41,949 bases of DNA, from positions 1 to 41,949 of the forward strand of contig DATJSI010000096.1 in assembly GCA_035504215.1 (NCBI GenBank), written 5' to 3'. Under the pieces are notes generated by a model, which saw only the letters and a list, made by a program, of their open reading frames with translations, was not told the origin of the DNA and ran no database searches. Both the position numbers and the translations under genes were made by a program. The DNA is from Mycobacteriales bacterium (GTDB lineage Bacteria > Actinomycetota > Actinomycetes > JAFAQI01). Position 1 is the first letter of the stretch, and each line of letters starts with the position of its first letter. Positions 8,453-37,847 of this stretch are shown piece after piece.

Positions 8453-8484
8453 GAAGGTCTGACCGGCAACCGCTCGGAGGCGTG

Positions 8485-8988
8485 GTGGACGACAGCTCGT
8501 TTCGCGAGTACGTCGCAGCCCGTGGGCTGGCCCTGACCAGGACGGCGTACCTGCTCTGCGGAAACCAGCACGACGCCGCCGACCTGGTGCAGACGGCCCT
8601 GTCCCGGGCGTACGCCGATTGGGGCCGGGTGTCGCGGATGGGCTCGCCGGATGCCTACATCCGCCGCATCATGGCCAACCAGCGGACGTCCTGGTGGCGC
8701 TCACGCCGTCGCGAGCACCTCACGCCCGGGCCGTTGCTGGACCGCGTCGCGGAGGACCGGACCGACAACGTTGCGATCGCGGATCTGGTCCGTGCGGCGG
8801 TGCGTGCGCTGCCGCCGAAGCAGCGGGCGGCGATCGTCTTCCGGTACTTCGAGGACCTGGATGATGCCGCGATCGCGTACGCGCTCGACTGCTCGCCGGC
8901 GACCGTGCGCAGCCAGATTTCCCGAGCGTTGACCCAGCTCCGTCAACGAGCGGACCTCAGTGAACTCGTGGGAGTGGAGGGATCATGA
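8485..8988 (+). CDS. SigE-type ECF RNA polymerase sigma factor
   Basis: This sigma factor of about 167 residues has only regions 2 and 4. Region 2 spans about 8-80 (LALTRTAYLLCGNQHDAADLVQT, then YIRRIMANQRTSWWR). Region 4.2 spans about 110-160 (LPPKQRAAIVFRYFEDLDDA, then CSPATVRSQISRALTQLR, the helix-turn-helix). This is the SigE family common in actinobacteria. The GTG at 8485 is preferred to that at 8482 because GGAGG (8476-8480) is too close to the latter. The stop overlaps the next gene (ATGA), linking it with a membrane protein that probably controls it. Confidence 0.88.
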   Translation: MDDSSFREYVAARGLALTRTAYLLCGNQHDAADLVQTALSRAYADWGRVSRMGSPDAYIRRIMANQRTSWWRSRRREHLTPGPLLDRVAEDRTDNVAIADLVRAAVRALPPKQRAAIVFRYFEDLDDAAIAYALDCSPATVRSQISRALTQLRQRADLSELVGVEGS

Positions 8989-9842
8989 TCGACCTGGACG
9001 AGCTGCTGCGGGAGACCCTTGCCGGCGATGTTGAAGGGGTCGCTCTGCCGCTGGATCTCGCCGAAATCGCGACCCGGCGAGGTCAGCGGATCCGGCGGCG
9101 GCGCCGCACCCTGACGACGGCCGCGGCGACCGGTTCCGCCGGCGCTGTCGTCGTCGGTGCGGTCGCGATCTCGGCGTGGGCGGGGCGTCCCGCGCATTCG
9201 CAGGTGCTGCTGGGCAGCCGTCCTTCCGAGCCGCCAGTTACCCGCCCGAGCCAGGCCAGCCACCACCACGATGCCGGGCTGGTGTGGACGAACTGGCCCA
9301 CGGACCGCCGGTTCGGCACTGCGCCGAGCCAGGCGTTCCTCGACGCGGTCGACCCGGGCCAGCCGCAGACGGTCTATGCCGAGGGCACGATGTCCGATGG
9401 GACCGAGTTCGTCGTCAGCGACCCGACTGCCGACCGCGGGGAGGTTCCCGGCTTCGTCCAGGGATGGAACAACGTCACCGACTTCGGTGAGTCGGTCAGC
9501 GTCGGCCCGTCGATGACGGACGGGTCGTATCTCGCCTTTCAGACGCCGACGTACGACGCAGGTGATCTGGACACGGCGACCACGCAGTGGCTGGTCGTCG
9601 TCGGTGCGCCGGACACCCGGACTGCGTCGTACTCCGCTGACGGCACATCCTGGACCTCGATGTCGGTGCAGGAGGGAATCGCCGTACTGAAGCTGCCTGC
9701 CATCGCACCGGTCGACGCGCAGATCCGGCTGACCGATGGCTCGGGCCACACCGTGCAAGGTGGACTGGGCGTCACCGGGCCGGTTGCGAGCCCGTCGGCC
9801 GACTCGAGCCCGACGGCGACCGGACCGTCGTCGGCGCCGTAG
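8985..9842 (+). CDS. Single-pass membrane partner of the ECF sigma factor
   Basis: This 285-residue protein has an acidic N-terminal segment of about 30 residues, a basic stretch (RRGQRIRRRRR) that keeps this end inside the cell, one transmembrane helix at about 43-65, and an extracytoplasmic domain (70-250) ending in a Ser/Pro/Thr tail. No zinc-binding HxxxCxxC anti-sigma motif is present, so it is not a classic ZAS protein. The ATGA overlap with the sigma gene and the topology make an anti-sigma or sensing role likely, but this is inference; I do not recognise the external domain. Confidence 0.7.
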   Translation: MIDLDELLRETLAGDVEGVALPLDLAEIATRRGQRIRRRRRTLTTAAATGSAGAVVVGAVAISAWAGRPAHSQVLLGSRPSEPPVTRPSQASHHHDAGLVWTNWPTDRRFGTAPSQAFLDAVDPGQPQTVYAEGTMSDGTEFVVSDPTADRGEVPGFVQGWNNVTDFGESVSVGPSMTDGSYLAFQTPTYDAGDLDTATTQWLVVVGAPDTRTASYSADGTSWTSMSVQEGIAVLKLPAIAPVDAQIRLTDGSGHTVQGGLGVTGPVASPSADSSPTATGPSSAP

Positions 9843-10000: not shown

Positions 10001-12982
10001 CTACGACCCGGGTGGACCCACCGTGTACTCGTAGGGATAGGCAGCCAGCGTCTGCAGGTCGAAGAAGTAACCCTGGCTGTCGAGCAGCGGCGAAAGGGCG
10101 CTGCCGTTGCTCACCACGGCGATCAGCCCGCTGACATCGGTGGCCGGAGCGGCAGTCGGTGTCAGCGTGCCCGTGACGAGCGCGGTGGCGTTCGGTGCGA
10201 TGTAGACGTTCGGCCCGCTGACGTCGCCGTTGGTTGACAGCAGGGTGAACGTCCGGCCGACGCCGGTGGTGTTCGTCACCTGCACGCTTACGGTGTTGCT
10301 GCTGCCCTGCGGCAATACGGTCGCCGAGCTGTCCGGAATCGAGACCGGTGTGGTCCGGGCTGTGTTGAAGCTGATGTCGCCCCGGATCGTCTGGTCGAAC
10401 TCCTTGCCGCTGGTGGTGAGATCCATCATCGCCTGGATCGTCCACACCCCCGGCGTCGGATCGGCAACCACGATCGCCGCGTTGCCGAGCTGATGGCTCG
10501 CGCCGACGCCTTCCGGTGTCGTGCTCGGCGTCCGGTCGTAGTAGCCGTCGAGCCCGTCCGGCTCGACCGCGAAGTAGTCCATGATGTTGTCCGGGCTCGT
10601 ATCCGCGGTGTGGAACGTGATGCGCAGGTCGTTCTCGCCCGGCGGTACGTCGATCTGCATGCTCTTCAACGGACCGAACCCGCGCGCGACGCTGCTACCC
10701 ATCTGCCAGCGGAACCGGCCGCCGGTCGACGGGATCAGGGTGCGCCGCGTCACCGGCACGGACACGCTCGTGCCGCGGTTCGACGTGAACTGCACCGACT
10801 CGGGGCGGTCGCCTGGCTGGTAGGGCAGCCTGACGGTCAGCGGGATCGTGGCACTGGAGTGCGCGGCGATCGTGACCGCCCGGCTTGCGCGGTTGTCGAT
10901 CTCGGCCTGTCCGGTGAAGCGGACCGAGATGTTGCCGCGGTAGCTGCCCGGCGTGGCCGGCGGGTCCTGCAGGTGGCTTCGGCCGTTGTTCCAGACGATT
11001 CGCGCCCGCCACTTGCCCGGCATCGGGTTGTCGATCGAGACATGCTCGTTGTTCGACACCGGCCCGGTCGGGGTGTCCGAGTAGTCGTAGGACACCTGGG
11101 CCAGGTGGCCCCGAGGGTCGAACAGCAGCAGCGACAGGACGGCGTCGTTGTTCGGGTTCGGCGTGATCATGTCGACGCCGAGCTGCGACAGTCCTCTCGG
11201 CACGTTCATCGTGATGTCCCGCGCGGCTTGCGCGCCTTCGGCCGGCAGCGGCTGCGAGGACGGCGGCGCCGTCACCGGCTCAGTGACGGTGCGCCCGATC
11301 TGCCACGGCCGGCTGAACCGCCGGAAGGTCCCGGTCACGGTCTGTGGGCGGTTGGACGCGTTGTACAACGAGACGCTCTGCTGGCTCGAGGTCCCGCCGT
11401 TTCCGCTCACGTTCACCTGGGTCGGGGTCGGCAGCAGCGCGCTCGACGACGAGCGGACGGTGGAGCCGGGTTCCTGCTGAGCCGCACGAACCGCAGCTCC
11501 GACGTCGAGCAGACCGGCACCTTGGCCGTCGCTGGGCGCACCGATGTCCTGCGCGGTCCCGGTCAGGATCTGCTTCACCATCGCGGGCGTGGGCTGTGCC
11601 CCGTCGTGCGAGTCGGCGTAGGCCTGGATCACGTCCGCGGCCGCACCCGCGATGAACGGCGCCGACTCGCTGGTCCCGCCGAATGCTTCGGTCAGCGTGG
11701 TCTGCGGACAGGTGGGCGAGGCGGGACTGCAGCTGGCTTCGCCGCCCTGACCGGGTGCAACGAGGTCGAGGACGTTGTCGTCAGGCGTGGTTCCACCCGA
11801 GGACAGCGCGGCGATCTGGTTGTCGTCCCAGTGCTTGTAGCCCCAGGCCTGCGCGAGCAGCCGGTAGGTCGTCGACGCACCCGCGTCGATCACGTTCGGG
11901 TCGTACGCCGGCACCTCGACCGTCCCGCCGACGCCAGAGTCACCGGCCGACTCGACGACCGTGATGCCGGCCGCAACGAGCTCGTCGTTTGCCTCGGTGA
12001 TGGCGCTGAAGTCGGTCTGGCCCGGAATCGCACCGTAGCCGTAGGACTCGGAGACGACTGACACGCCGTCATCGATCGCCGCGATGTCGAGGCCGGCGAT
12101 CGCCTCCGACTCCGTCGTCGGGACGTCGGACGTGCCCTGTCCGAAGTAGCCGGTGTCGACGATCGAGGCTCCTGGCGCGATGCCCACGATCCGGAACGTG
12201 CAGCCGGCCGGCAGGTTCGAGTACGGGAGCTCCTTGGAGAAGTCGTACGTGACCGTGCCTTGACCGCCGATCGACGAGGCGTCGCCGTACCACTCGTCGC
12301 CGCCGCCGTCGAAGTTCGAGTCGTCCTCATTGGGCGTCGGGCTGTCGATGACGACGTGCTTCCCATCGGGCCGGATCAGGTTGGGGTTGCCGGCAAGCTC
12401 GTTGACGCCGGTGAGGCCGATCTTGACCCCGACGCCGGTCGCGATCCGCGCGGCATCACCCGGCTGCGCGGGTTGGCTCATGAAGTGGGTGACCGCCAGG
12501 GCCTCCGGCTCGAGCAGTGGCTTGTTCGGGTTCGAGGGGCACAGCCGCTGGCTGATGTTGGCCGCCGGCACCTGCGGAGCCGTCCGGGCCACGATCGGCA
12601 TGTCCCGCTGGATGGAGGCGACGTCCGGGTTGCTGCGCAGCCGCTGCACCTCGGCGGCTGTGACCTTGGCCGCGACCGCGTTCACGCTGACCAGGTGGCG
12701 GACCTGGGTGCCGCCGTGCGAGGTGATGCTGGCGGTGACCGACTTTTGCGACGCCAGCGTCGTCGCCTGGCGCTGCCTGCCCTGGGCCTTGATCTTCAAG
12801 CCGTGGTACTGGTTCTTGAGGATGACGATCACCTTGCCGCCGTGCTCTGCGGCATGCGTGACCGGCGCGAGCGACGTGGATCGCGGCGTGGCAGCTGCCG
12901 ATGACGCCGCGGCGCTCCCCAGGGTGAGTGCGGCGGCCGTCGCGACAACCGCGGAAAGGGTGACGAGTGGGCGAGGTTGCAC
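10001..12982 (-). CDS. Secreted S8-like (subtilase clan SB) protein with degenerate active site
   Basis: This 993-residue exported protein has a signal peptide (about 1-32), an I9-type propeptide region (about 48-130) and a subtilisin-fold domain (about 150-470), followed by about 500 residues of beta-rich modules. The serine motif GGTSESAP (Ser438) is intact. The usual DTG aspartate motif reads GLTGVNE (about 189-195), and no HGTH histidine motif is found where a GDASSIGGQG stretch appears instead. The oxyanion position, normally Asn, reads AGDSG (Asp348), as in sedolisins. Similar divergent S8 homologues are, as far as I recall, known in actinobacteria, so it may be a subfamily with altered chemistry or an inactive binder. 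Start GTG 12982 is chosen over one 60 bases upstream because it begins the signal peptide and follows AGGGG. Confidence 0.78.
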   Translation of the reverse strand: MQPRPLVTLSAVVATAAALTLGSAAASSAAATPRSTSLAPVTHAAEHGGKVIVILKNQYHGLKIKAQGRQRQATTLASQKSVTASITSHGGTQVRHLVSVNAVAAKVTAAEVQRLRSNPDVASIQRDMPIVARTAPQVPAANISQRLCPSNPNKPLLEPEALAVTHFMSQPAQPGDAARIATGVGVKIGLTGVNELAGNPNLIRPDGKHVVIDSPTPNEDDSNFDGGGDEWYGDASSIGGQGTVTYDFSKELPYSNLPAGCTFRIVGIAPGASIVDTGYFGQGTSDVPTTESEAIAGLDIAAIDDGVSVVSESYGYGAIPGQTDFSAITEANDELVAAGITVVESAGDSGVGGTVEVPAYDPNVIDAGASTTYRLLAQAWGYKHWDDNQIAALSSGGTTPDDNVLDLVAPGQGGEASCSPASPTCPQTTLTEAFGGTSESAPFIAGAAADVIQAYADSHDGAQPTPAMVKQILTGTAQDIGAPSDGQGAGLLDVGAAVRAAQQEPGSTVRSSSSALLPTPTQVNVSGNGGTSSQQSVSLYNASNRPQTVTGTFRRFSRPWQIGRTVTEPVTAPPSSQPLPAEGAQAARDITMNVPRGLSQLGVDMITPNPNNDAVLSLLLFDPRGHLAQVSYDYSDTPTGPVSNNEHVSIDNPMPGKWRARIVWNNGRSHLQDPPATPGSYRGNISVRFTGQAEIDNRASRAVTIAAHSSATIPLTVRLPYQPGDRPESVQFTSNRGTSVSVPVTRRTLIPSTGGRFRWQMGSSVARGFGPLKSMQIDVPPGENDLRITFHTADTSPDNIMDYFAVEPDGLDGYYDRTPSTTPEGVGASHQLGNAAIVVADPTPGVWTIQAMMDLTTSGKEFDQTIRGDISFNTARTTPVSIPDSSATVLPQGSSNTVSVQVTNTTGVGRTFTLLSTNGDVSGPNVYIAPNATALVTGTLTPTAAPATDVSGLIAVVSNGSALSPLLDSQGYFFDLQTLAAYPYEYTVGPPGS

Positions 12983-33908: not shown

Positions 33909-36900
33909 TTAGAGCTCCTCATTGAGCCGCTTCGGGTACAGCACGAACGCGGCCGGTCCGGCGCCGTGCTTGTTCAGCGCCTTCACCTCCGCGATGTACA
34001 CCTCCGGATGCAGGTGGATCACGTCCGAGCGGACGTGTGGGCCCACCCGGAACTTGACCGGTTTGGGTTGCTTGCGCGAGAACAGGTTCAGCGGCCTGAT
34101 GATGATCCGGTAGCCGGTGATCGGCGCACCGCCGTTGACCAGCGGGCGCACCCACGACACCACGAGTGAGTCGGTCCGCTCCTTCGTCTTCATGCTCTGC
34201 GGTGCCGACGGCGGGCTGACGACGTACCGGTACGTCGTCGTCGCCGTGATCGCGCTCGGTGCGCCGCCGGGGGCGTACTCGCTTTCTGCTGTCGTCACAA
34301 CGACATTGACGACCTTCTTGGGTGTGCCGGGTGGTGGTTGCACCTCGATCGAGTTCGCCGACGCCGACGGACCGAACTCATCGTCGGCGACGACCGCCGC
34401 GCGCTTGCCGAACATCACCGAGACCGGGTTGCTCAGGTTGTGACCCCTGATCTCGACGAGGTTCGCGCCAGAAGCCGGCCCGTGGTGCGGCACGACCGCC
34501 GTCACCACCGGGTTTCCCGGCAGATAGAAGACGAAGCTCGTGCTCTTCGCCGCCGGGCTGTCGGGGTTACCCCTCAGGAACGAACACCCGGAAACGGTGC
34601 ACGCGGTCACCTCGTCCGTGCCCGCGAGCACTTGTGGGGTGGTCGCCGTGAGCGAGGTGCTGCTCGCGACCGTGATTCCGGAGAGCTGGTCGCGGGGCAG
34701 GCCGATGTTGTCGTCCACGTACTCGAGATAGCCGCCGGCGCTCGGCGCGACCGCATCCAGGCCCTCGCCGGTCACCGTGATGGTGGTCCCGCCGCCGGCC
34801 GGACCGGCGGCCGGGCTCACCGAGGTGACCTTCGGGATCCCTGCGTAGATCACGGGTGTCGGCGCGGACGTGCCGGCTGCGGTCACGACTCGCAACGACT
34901 TGTGCAGGCTGTTCACGCTGAAGTTGTTCGTCCCGTTGGGGAGCAGGTCGATCTCGTTCGGAGTCACCGACAGCGCGAAGTAGTTCTGCGAGGCGGCGCT
35001 GGTTGGCGACCCGATCAGCGTCCAGTCGTACCCCGGATAGGCAAAGCCCTGCCCATAGATCGACACGACGTTGAACCCGAGCTCGCTCAAGTAGGTCGTC
35101 GACAGGGACGTCACAGTCGGCGCCGGGGTGTAGTCGTACTCGGTTCGAGCCGGCAACGACGCGCAACCCGTACACGGCGTACTGCCGTCGGTCGAGCCTT
35201 CGTAGAGCGGCACGATGGGAGTCGTCGAGCTCGAACCGGCCGACCCGGTGACGACGAGCTGGGTCTGGCACAGCTCGGTGTCGGGATGAAGGTCGATGCC
35301 CGCGCAGCTGGTCCTGCCGCTCTGGTACGCCGGAATCGTCACGGTCATCTTGTCCGCGGACAGCACGGTGTAGGAGCTCGCAGGCAGGCCACCGACCGTG
35401 ACCGCCTCCACGTCGCTCGTGCCGCTCCGCTCGAAGCCCGAGCCGTAGACCGTCACCGTGTTTCCGCCGGCTTGAGCACCGATGTCGCCAGAGATGAAGC
35501 CGACGCTCGGCACCGAGCTGGATGCAGAGGTGTCGACGTACTCGAGCCGGCTCGCCGAGCCGGCCATCGCCGACGTCCCGCCGGGTCCGGTGACGCTGAC
35601 GATCGCCGGACCAGCGCCGGTCTCGCCGGGGTCGCCGCCGGTCAGGCTCGAGGCCGGTGGCGGCGGGGTGACGTCGATCTCGCTGTCGCTCGCGACCGTG
35701 AAGTCTGCGGTCGGGACCTGGTAGCCGCCGATCGAGACCGCGGTGGCGCCGGTGAAGTTCGTCCCGCTGATCGTGAGCGTCCCGCTCGGATCGAGCGGCT
35801 CGACCGTGGGGCTCAGGCCGCTGATCGCGGGCGCGGTGCTCGGTCCCATCGCACACAGGTAAGCGGCGAGTGCGGGTTTGCCGCTCCGCGCAGTGAGGCG
35901 CGGTGAGCCGAGACCGGAAGCGAGGTCGTATCCGGTCGTCGCCGGGAAGAACTGGCCGCCGCTGATCGCGTAGTCGTCGTTGTTGCCCGTCGTCACGTCG
36001 TTGAACGACGCGGCCGCCTCGCTGGCGTTCGCGCCGATGGCGTAGAGCTTCGGGCTGATGAACCCGAGCGGTCCGGAGGACTGGCACCCCGCCGAGGCCT
36101 GGACGTCGGCGAGCATGGCCGCCCACAACGGGGTGGACGACGACGTCCCGCCGAAGTCGACCCAGCCACCGAACTCGTGGTCGTATATGCCCGGAGCGCC
36201 GGTGTATTCGTCGGCCTCCGCGGTGACGTCCGGAACGGTGCGGCAGACGGTGTCATCCGTTGATGTGGCCTGCGGGCACGGTTGGTCTTCACCGCTACCG
36301 AAGCTTGCGCCGGAGCCGTAGGCAGCGGCGAACACCGACGGGTCGATGCTCGCGATCGCTGACTGCTGCCAGCTCGGCGCGCTCCACAGGGCCGACGTGC
36401 CGCCACCGCCGGAGCCGCCGTAGTTGCCGTCGTTCCATACCTGCTCGGTGGGGCGGTTCGAGTCGTCGATGACTGCGGTGCCGCCGACCGAGGTCACGAA
36501 CGGCTGGCTCGACGGGTCCCCGGCCGACACGTACGGCGACTCCGGGAGAGGGCTGCCGTTGGGGGCGCACTCGTCCGACCCGCTGTCACCGGCCGCGTTG
36601 AGCACCGTCTGGCCCTGGAGGGCCGCCTCTTCGAAGATCTGGTTCTCGGTGTCGACCAGTCCGGGTTCGTAGGCGAGGGTCTGCTGCTCGCACCACTCGC
36701 TGCCGTAGCTGGAAGTGACGAACTGGTCGGTGTCCTGGGTGACGATCTGGTTGTAGGTGTCGAGGTAGCCGGTGTTCGTCGGCGGCCCGGTGTAGACGTC
36801 TATGTCCGCATCGGGTGCGAAGGCGGAGACGTCCTCGACGTCGAGATCTGCCTCGTCGGAGCCTGCGCCCACACCCGTCCCTGCGCCTCCGTCGACGAGG

Positions 36901-37847
36901 ATCGAGTTCAGCCGGCCGACCATCGCCACCGCGCCGGCGGTGCCGAAGTAACAGGTGTCGAAGGTCGACACGTCGGAGGCGGAGTACGGGTAGAGCTCGT
37001 ACACCGCAATGTGTTGTCCGGCGCCGAGGTCGCCTGCATTGAACAGGCCGTCGAGCCCGTAGGCGTGGGCGAGGTGGTCGTAGGTCAGCCCGTTCTCTTC
37101 GTTCGCATTCTCGACCGCCGCTGCGCAGGGATCCGGAGCTCCGGGGGCGTGGGTCAGCAACGGGTGGCGATCCAGCGGGATCTCATGGCCGGCACCTTGC
37201 TTCGTCCAGTGCTCGATGCTGCTGACCGGCCGCGCCAGGGTGCTCAGCCCGATCACACCGGCCACCTGGGACGCGATGGTTGCCGGCAGCTTCGGCGCGG
37301 AGGTCATCTGCATGCCGACCCGCCCGCTGCTGAGCCGGAACGTCGCGAGGCTGCCGTGGAAGGCGGCCTCGGCTTGCGCAGCCGTGCCGCTGAAGGAGAT
37401 GAGCATGCCGTTGCCCGAGACCGAGCCGATCCGCAGATGCGCCGCCCGCAGGGCCGCCTCGACCTCGGCGATCGAGGTCGCGGTCGGGCCGTAGGTCGAA
37501 CGGAACTTCCCCGCCGGTAAGTAATGGCGGTACGCCGGCGAGGACGGCGTCGACACAGCCGTCGCGGCGGCGGTCAACGCGGCCGGGTCGCGAGGCTTGA
37601 GGGCCACGTCACCGCTGACCGCTACCGACGGCGCAACCCGACCCAGCCGGGTCGCGGTCGACGGCACCCGGGGAGCCGCGCTGACCCGCGCCAGGCCCGT
37701 CATCGCTGCACGTGCGCCCTGAGCCGACGCAGCGGGTCGATGCGTGAGCGCAGCGGCGGGCGAGCCCGCCAGGCTCATCAACACGACCGCCGACGCCGCA
37801 CCGGTGACCAACCAGGAGGAACCACGAAGGTTCGGGCGTGCGCGCAT
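33909..37847 (-). CDS. Secreted sedolisin (S53) peptidase with five IPT/TIG domains and an Fn3 domain
   Basis: This 1312-residue exported protease starts with a signal peptide (about 1-34). A Pro-kumamolisin activation domain spans about 65-205. The S53 catalytic domain (about 240-675) has Glu332 and Asp336 (EADLD), oxyanion Asp421 (AAGDSG) and nucleophile Ser569 (GGTSSSTP). A calcium-site segment follows (FNDVTTGNNDDY, later GYDLASGLGSP). Five IPT/TIG modules follow from about 680 (each with a P-x-V-x-x-(I/V)-x-P and GG-x-x-V-x-(I/V)-x-G-x-x pattern), then an Fn3-like domain near the C-terminus. Sedolisins usually work at acid pH. The TIG array is unusual and suggests binding to a polymer or surface. 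GGGGA precedes the ATG. Confidence 0.9.
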   Translation of the reverse strand: MRARPNLRGSSWLVTGAASAVVLMSLAGSPAAALTHRPAASAQGARAAMTGLARVSAAPRVPSTATRLGRVAPSVAVSGDVALKPRDPAALTAAATAVSTPSSPAYRHYLPAGKFRSTYGPTATSIAEVEAALRAAHLRIGSVSGNGMLISFSGTAAQAEAAFHGSLATFRLSSGRVGMQMTSAPKLPATIASQVAGVIGLSTLARPVSSIEHWTKQGAGHEIPLDRHPLLTHAPGAPDPCAAAVENANEENGLTYDHLAHAYGLDGLFNAGDLGAGQHIAVYELYPYSASDVSTFDTCYFGTAGAVAMVGRLNSILVDGGAGTGVGAGSDEADLDVEDVSAFAPDADIDVYTGPPTNTGYLDTYNQIVTQDTDQFVTSSYGSEWCEQQTLAYEPGLVDTENQIFEEAALQGQTVLNAAGDSGSDECAPNGSPLPESPYVSAGDPSSQPFVTSVGGTAVIDDSNRPTEQVWNDGNYGGSGGGGTSALWSAPSWQQSAIASIDPSVFAAAYGSGASFGSGEDQPCPQATSTDDTVCRTVPDVTAEADEYTGAPGIYDHEFGGWVDFGGTSSSTPLWAAMLADVQASAGCQSSGPLGFISPKLYAIGANASEAAASFNDVTTGNNDDYAISGGQFFPATTGYDLASGLGSPRLTARSGKPALAAYLCAMGPSTAPAISGLSPTVEPLDPSGTLTISGTNFTGATAVSIGGYQVPTADFTVASDSEIDVTPPPPASSLTGGDPGETGAGPAIVSVTGPGGTSAMAGSASRLEYVDTSASSSVPSVGFISGDIGAQAGGNTVTVYGSGFERSGTSDVEAVTVGGLPASSYTVLSADKMTVTIPAYQSGRTSCAGIDLHPDTELCQTQLVVTGSAGSSSTTPIVPLYEGSTDGSTPCTGCASLPARTEYDYTPAPTVTSLSTTYLSELGFNVVSIYGQGFAYPGYDWTLIGSPTSAASQNYFALSVTPNEIDLLPNGTNNFSVNSLHKSLRVVTAAGTSAPTPVIYAGIPKVTSVSPAAGPAGGGTTITVTGEGLDAVAPSAGGYLEYVDDNIGLPRDQLSGITVASSTSLTATTPQVLAGTDEVTACTVSGCSFLRGNPDSPAAKSTSFVFYLPGNPVVTAVVPHHGPASGANLVEIRGHNLSNPVSVMFGKRAAVVADDEFGPSASANSIEVQPPPGTPKKVVNVVVTTAESEYAPGGAPSAITATTTYRYVVSPPSAPQSMKTKERTDSLVVSWVRPLVNGGAPITGYRIIIRPLNLFSRKQPKPVKFRVGPHVRSDVIHLHPEVYIAEVKALNKHGAGPAAFVLYPKRLNEEL

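Follow-up and report, generated by a model that had tools for sequence, protein, structure and literature searches.

What kind of protease, if any, is a protein of the subtilase clan that keeps the nucleophilic serine in place, carries Asp in the oxyanion position and shows neither a DTG nor an HGTH motif? This question is raised by one gene in a 41,949-nucleotide contig of a Mycobacteriales bacterium (the window, hereafter). Our reading, to which we give a probability of about 0.75, is that the gene encodes a secreted serine-carboxyl peptidase built on an S8 scaffold, which would be active and would probably work at acid pH. Sequence and models support it through the subtilisin fold, an I9-type prodomain and the invariant E230, D234, D348 and S438, which fit the S53 pattern.

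The gene and the predicted structure of its product

The gene is real and intact, and it is more than a chance frame, since full-length relatives with the same four active-site residues occur in other genomes. Its frame runs on the minus strand from a GTG start at 12982 down to 10001, stop codon included, and an alternative TTG start upstream would add 20 residues. The features referred to below are the following.

10001..12982, minus: whole gene, 993-aa protease precursor (reading of the open frame)
12890..12982, minus: probable signal peptide, about residues 1-31 (sequence judged by eye)
12599..12832, minus: I9-type inhibitor prodomain, residues 51-128 (Pfam PF05922 and model alignment)
11474..12520, minus: subtilisin-fold catalytic domain, residues 155-503 (Pfam PF00082 and AlphaFold2 model)
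12389..12427, minus: strand-1 segment, residues 186-198, VKIGLTGVNELAG (alignment and eye)
12293..12295, minus: E230, proposed catalytic base in the place of subtilisin His64 (invariance, MAFFT, range starts of the VIA structure search)
12281..12283, minus: D234, proposed catalytic acid one helical turn past E230 (invariance, model helix 230-239)
12044..12046, minus: S313, equivalent of subtilisin Ser125, in an SES tripeptide (alignment)
11939..11941, minus: D348, oxyanion-hole Asp replacing Asn155 (alignment)
11669..11671, minus: S438, nucleophile in GGTSESAP (alignment)
10004..11449, minus: C-terminal beta-rich part, residues 512-993 (secondary structure of the model)

The Pfam match to Inhibitor_I9 lies barely above its cut-off (E 4e-4, 21.4 bits against 21.2). 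That to Peptidase_S8, at residues 259-490 (E 1.9e-20, 73.8 bits, cut-off 21.8), starts only past the Asp and His regions. At E 1 the window protein matches no NCBIfam family; 39 members of its family, described below, match assorted S8 models, SGO_0316 (27) and QhpE (20) being the most widespread and mycosin occurring in 3.

The AlphaFold2 model, made from 46 sequences, has a pLDDT of 81.7 and a pTM of 0.86, with a local confidence below 50 at residues 217-227, just before E230. Its residues 155-499 superpose on residues 1-275 of subtilisins with Z of about 35 and an rmsd of 2.2 (1scj_A: Z 34.9, rmsd 2.2, 265 of 275 residues aligned), and residues 47-503, prodomain included, align with pro-Tk-subtilisin. 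The 500 or so extra beta-rich residues of the initial annotation correspond to about 480 residues located C-terminal of the catalytic domain. This part resembles that of large subtilases, as residues 158-854 of the model align with the subtilase Vpr (Z 40.2, 383 residues aligned). Of 39 relatives, 16 have an fn3_5 domain at E 0.01 (Pfam), which the window protein lacks. When residues 228-505 were predicted alone, pLDDT and pTM were again 81.7 and 0.86, and a helix was placed at 230-239. None of the best 50 matches listed for each structure search is an S53 chain; this is no evidence against a likeness to S53, because subtilisins fill most of these rows.

A discrete, mostly actinobacterial family

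Of 60 genomes searched, six held a match, one being the window's own. The two weakest (G028 and G020) were rejected as family members: they are ordinary S8 proteins, with HGTH in one (L006) and full-length PF00082 matches at both places. Scanning 84,980 species genomes yielded 50 loci. Named carriers are Catenulispora, Kutzneria, Streptomyces, Lentzea, Solihabitans, Actinocrispum and Rugosimonospora, and further loci come from many soil, bog and palsa assemblies. Actinomycetota predominate, and some carrier assemblies are labelled Gammaproteobacteria, Melainabacteria, Dormiibacterota, Acidobacteriaceae or Chloroflexi. One locus (L058, in an actinomycetotal assembly named Kribbella) holds ordinary subtilases and was excluded. 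No relative was found in viral_contigs. At two loci (L026 and L053) the tblastn match crosses a break of the open frame, the longest open stretch covering 0.70 and 0.61 of the match, respectively.

Judged from sequence, the family is discrete and mostly actinobacterial. In a set of 393 genomes from the class, seven hold members, at 345-436 bits, to which a contig-end piece of 104 bits must be added, and the next match after the family, at 106 bits, begins past the E230/D234 helix. The closest relative of the window protein is that of Rugosimonospora (L052), at 51% in the full alignment and with a pairing supported at 100/100 in the 32-row tree described below.

The active-site residues and their conservation

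The initial annotation had described Ser438 in an intact GTS context, an Asp as the oxyanion residue, and unrecognisable DTG and HGTH motifs. All of this holds: the serine lies in GGTSESAP and Asp348 in SAGDSG, and neither of the two motifs is present. What this first reading overlooked is the E230-x-x-x-D234 pair at the start of one helix, in a motif that reads GEAFGDASSI in the family and DEWYGDASSI in the window protein.

Conservation was counted over 49 of 53 aligned sequences, four fragments (L008, L045, L050 and L057) being left out; L053 and L058 are outside the alignment, and L003 and L035 are apparently one gene. E230, D234, D348 and S438 are invariant in 49/49 sequences, most alignment rows having been selected for the E and the D, because both residues are part of one of the two patterns used for scanning. 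The seven members found without that pattern (L002, L003, L007 and L008 by the 60-genome search, L010, L052 and L056 by the other scan pattern) all still have E230 and D234. These two residues and D348 are the only invariant Asp or Glu of the 49 sequences, in which S313, H459, C148, C261, C418 and C425 are likewise invariant. Just past the helix, at residues 241-246 (12245-12262, minus strand), Q241 is found in 49/49 sequences and G242 and Y246 in 48/49 each.

Which residue stands in the place of His64?

In five modes of MAFFT, the catalytic His of the ordinary subtilases falls on E230 in 53/53 rows. The comparison rows come from the same phylum and were picked by HG[TS], [DE][TS]G and GTS motifs, so that their own His (53/53) and Asp/Glu (51/53) hold by construction; 24 of 82 S8 loci were missed or too long for this set. 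D234 stands opposite Val, Met, Ile or Leu68 in 53/53 S8 rows and, in another MAFFT alignment, opposite one of these four residues in 38/39 and Cys in one. When 28 family members were aligned with the 53 S8 sequences, the family showed Ala in the Asp32 column (25/28), Asp/Glu at Thr/Ser33 (27/28), Glu at His64 (28/28), Asp at residue 68 (28/28) and Asp at Asn155 (28/28). D348 is aligned with Asn in 53/53 S8 and with Asp in 9/9 S53, and S313 with Ser in 53/53 S8 and 9/9 S53.

The structure search made with the truncated model (residues 228-505) points to the same register. All 50 VIA rows start at the first model residue, G228, and the residue opposite is subtilisin 62 in 21 of them. G228 thus pairs with subtilisin 62 and E230 therefore falls on His64, the register being taken from range ends only and on the assumption that the first three columns are gap-free. 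In three rows of SpyCEP type the range starts at 277, which fits the catalytic His279 of SpyCEP. In Vpr it starts at 228, which fits His230 (the first His of HGTH by sequence index) if the numbering of the entry agrees. Another 25 rows are left, of which 23 agree with what we take to be the catalytic His numbers, the comparison leaving aside 5fax and 7eox.

A contrary register also exists. Alignment by hhalign with 10 S8 sequences puts Q241-G242 on His64-Gly65, and the HMMER alignment with Vpr also has Q241-G242 on His-Gly. With the 53 S8 sequences, hhalign puts the His on D229, one residue off, and D234 on Val68. Neither MAFFT nor hhalign aligned the S53 helix with the E230/D234 helix. We prefer the E230 register because helix 230-239 is the main candidate for subtilisin helix C and because the VIA rows start at 228 opposite 62.

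A proposed mechanism and its alternatives

How could such a site work? Ser438 would attack the peptide bond, and Glu230, in the place of His64, would serve as the general base. Asp234, a turn further along the helix, would pair with Glu230 and take the role of subtilisin Asp32, while the Ala32 of most relatives would vacate the space that Asp32 fills in subtilisin. Asp348, protonated, would contribute to the oxyanion hole. The I9 domain would hold the protein in a folded, inhibited state up to its self-cleavage, and binding to a surface or to the substrate may be the role of the C-terminal part. The mature enzyme would degrade extracellular protein at acid pH. We propose this mechanism because the family shows the serine-carboxyl pattern set out in PMC11593635, and because Ala32 leaves room for it. 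That paper describes two sets of serine-carboxyl proteinase residues, EWDLD 80-84, SSGD 167-170 and TS 286-287 in the one, EVELD 78-82, AAGD 161-164 and TS 277-278 in the other. In both, Glu is the base, the Asp four residues on the acid, a further Asp the oxyanion residue, and the nucleophilic Ser lies in TS; the acid is said there to 'move' to the segment of the base in these enzymes. The Glu230-Asp234 pairing, the pH optimum and the self-processing are what we infer for the protein itself.

The initial annotation had also entertained an inactive binder, that is, a pseudoprotease whose scaffold binds proteins or surfaces and whose acidic residues are structural. Loss of catalytic residues such as His64 and Asp32 is a common sign of a pseudoprotease; both are gone here, and the window member is also devoid of the strand-1 acid. 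However, a typical pseudoprotease lets its site drift, and here the nucleophile, the oxyanion Asp, the Ser125 equivalent and a Glu-Asp pair in the S53 register are invariant in 49/49 sequences. Because the complete Glu/Asp/Asp/Ser set is invariant, we do not favour an inactive binder and consider it unlikely.

The strand-1 acid itself suggests another mode of catalysis, of the D-E-S type, in which the Asp or Glu at position 33 would be the catalytic acid and D234 merely structural. Position 33 is indeed Asp or Glu in 49/51 family rows. Yet D234 is invariant (49/49) although the window protein has no strand acid, and this acid stands opposite Thr/Ser33 of S8, not opposite Asp32; we regard a D-E-S site as improbable. 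Strand 1 of the window protein has a remodelled sequence (GLTGVNELAG), in which T191, as judged by eye, takes the place of Asp/Glu33. Its relative L052 retains the strand-1 Asp (NDGINALAG), and the subgroup formed by the two has about two residues fewer before the strand-1 DG motif and two more after it.

Could the protein be a true S53 sedolisin that the databases mislabel as S8? The catalytic set is common to both, but the family scores 227 with S8 and 112 with S53 in hhalign, where S8 and S53 score 83 with each other. Pro-kuma_activ (PF09286) is found in 0/39 members at E 0.01, and I9 in 22/39 (Pfam). Furthermore, a regular expression for the C-terminal motif G-x-D-x-x-[TS]-G-x-G finds it in 0/48 members as against 6/7 S53, and the sampled S53 form a separate clade (100/100). 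A sedolisin under a wrong label is thus very improbable. The C-terminal motif presumably sits near the Ca site of S53. As for an ordinary S8 enzyme with displaced Asp and His, its S8 sequence and fold and the invariance of H459 would suit it, but the His inventory and the alignments do not support it, and we regard it as extremely improbable: residues 148-510 hold only H166, H209, H384 and H459, none at the place of His64, all variable save H459, which lies 21 residues past S438, near the end of the long helix (437-458) that also holds this Ser. Ala occupies the Asp32 column in 48/51 rows. The hidden catalytic pair by which the initial annotation would have recognised such an enzyme did not appear.

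Genomic context

The neighbours of the gene, among them a sigma factor, an ArsR-type regulator with DUF5937 and an MFS transporter, give no hint of its function. On the plus strand, convergent with the protease gene, 8482-9842 encodes a sigma-70 family factor and, just behind and overlapping it, a protein of 285 aa devoid of Pfam match, which is possibly its anti-sigma factor. At 177-2828, also on the plus strand, lies an open frame of 883 aa with no Pfam match at E 0.001, which an 850-aa frame overlaps on the other strand.

The window also holds the gene of an S53 sedolisin precursor (33909-37847, minus strand), with Pro-kuma_activ, E-x-x-x-D, GDSG and GGTS, and with TIG and fn3 modules. By motif, at least seven S53-type proteins are encoded in this genome, namely six PF00082 matches that passed the motif filter and the one in the window, and five Pro-kuma prodomains are found, one of them within the window. 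The corresponding loci (L062-L067 and L098-L102) are distributed over contigs C32, C36, C62, C97 and C127, and C97 carries two at a distance of about 4 kb. Of the 14 genomes examined as controls, that of Sulfolobus acidocaldarius alone encodes a Pro-kuma prodomain. PF09286 occurs in 5/7 of the genomes that carry the family and in 65/386 of the others sampled (Fisher p 0.0025). In the taxonomic family of the window, the carriers have 5, 3 and 0 copies and the non-carriers 0 to 7. Since PF09286 does not separate the carriers there, the link to an acid habitat is only suggestive. The abundance of S53-type proteins in this genome fits such a habitat, which is no proof for the protease gene.

Position between S8 and S53

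Trees were built on the region past the helix, with the oxyanion column taken out; the S8 and S53 rows all come from the window's phylum, the Kribbella locus L058 included, and, apart from the window's own S53, were picked by motif. In a quick tree rooted on S53, the family is nested in S8, and once three long rows are removed the S8 set becomes a single clade with a support of 90. More S8 rows bring the nesting back in a quick tree, the tree that holds S8 together being 38 log units better (p-AU 0.92). In a careful tree of 32 rows, which retains 10 of the 53 S8 rows and 13 of the 28 family rows, six long S8 rows having been dropped, S8 (98/96), S53 (100/100) and the family (85/95) form three branches, with the family outside the sampled S8. 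Nesting in S8 was not rejected by five of six tests (p 0.06-0.18) and was rejected by one (p 0.003). Unrooted, the three-group tree is also compatible with the family as sister of S53.

Within clan SB the family may stand as a third catalytic family, a lineage with the full S53 set on an S8 scaffold and a place between S8 and S53; if it is instead nested in S8, Ser-Glu-Asp catalysis would have been invented independently a second time. We hold this proposal in even balance. Should the family branch between S8 and S53, the sedolisin active site would be older than the sedolisin prodomain and C-terminal motif. The family may show how one protease type turns into another. A natural family that joins the scaffold of the one type to the active site of the other would open the switch from His-based to carboxyl-based catalysis to experimental test. 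It might also supply enzymes active at acid pH, built on a protease scaffold that has been much engineered.

Comparison with known systems

Catalytic residues have reportedly changed in nature elsewhere in clan SB: Siezen, Renckens and Boekhorst are said to have described, in 2007, catalytic variants of subtilases forming E-H-S and D-E-S subsets, the latter with its acid on strand 1. The family has such a change in common with both subsets. E-H-S, however, keeps the His, and the strand-1 acid reported for D-E-S contrasts with the invariant acid of the present family, which lies on a helix, beside the Glu. Such variants can be active, since PMC3937732 assigns an active protease to the E-H-S family. 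Among the open-access papers listed, none presents in its title or the opening of its abstract an S8 scaffold with an S53 catalytic set.

In PMC9549277, S8 is defined by D-H-S and S53 by ED-S. With the S8 subtilases (subtilisin, Vpr, Tk-subtilisin and SpyCEP; MEROPS S8A), our family shares the fold, the I9 prodomain and a large beta-rich C-terminal part, and 32/39 members match PF00082 at E 0.01. It lacks the catalytic Asp32 and His64 and the oxyanion Asn155: relative to S8A, Asp32 has become Ala, His64 Glu, Val68 Asp and Asn155 Asp.

With S53 (sedolisin 1GA6, kumamolisin 1GT9), whose members act at acid pH and are insensitive to pepstatin, the family shares a single helix bearing the Glu base and, four residues further, the Asp acid. 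In the register that we prefer, and that hhalign with 10 S8 and HMMER contradict, it is the His64 helix. It also shares the oxyanion Asp and the Ser in GGTS, with a Pro four residues past the Ser. It differs by its S8-type overall sequence, by an I9-type prodomain where S53 has Pro-kuma, by about 20 more residues between the E230/D234 helix and the AP motif, and by Ala at position 32, where 8/9 S53 have Asp or Glu. The initial annotation had seen an intermediate between S8 and S53. This stands for the anatomy, which combines the fold, prodomain type and overall sequence of S8 with S53-type catalytic residues; an intermediate in evolution is one of the readings that the trees allow. As far as sequence tells, the family is built like S8 and works like S53.
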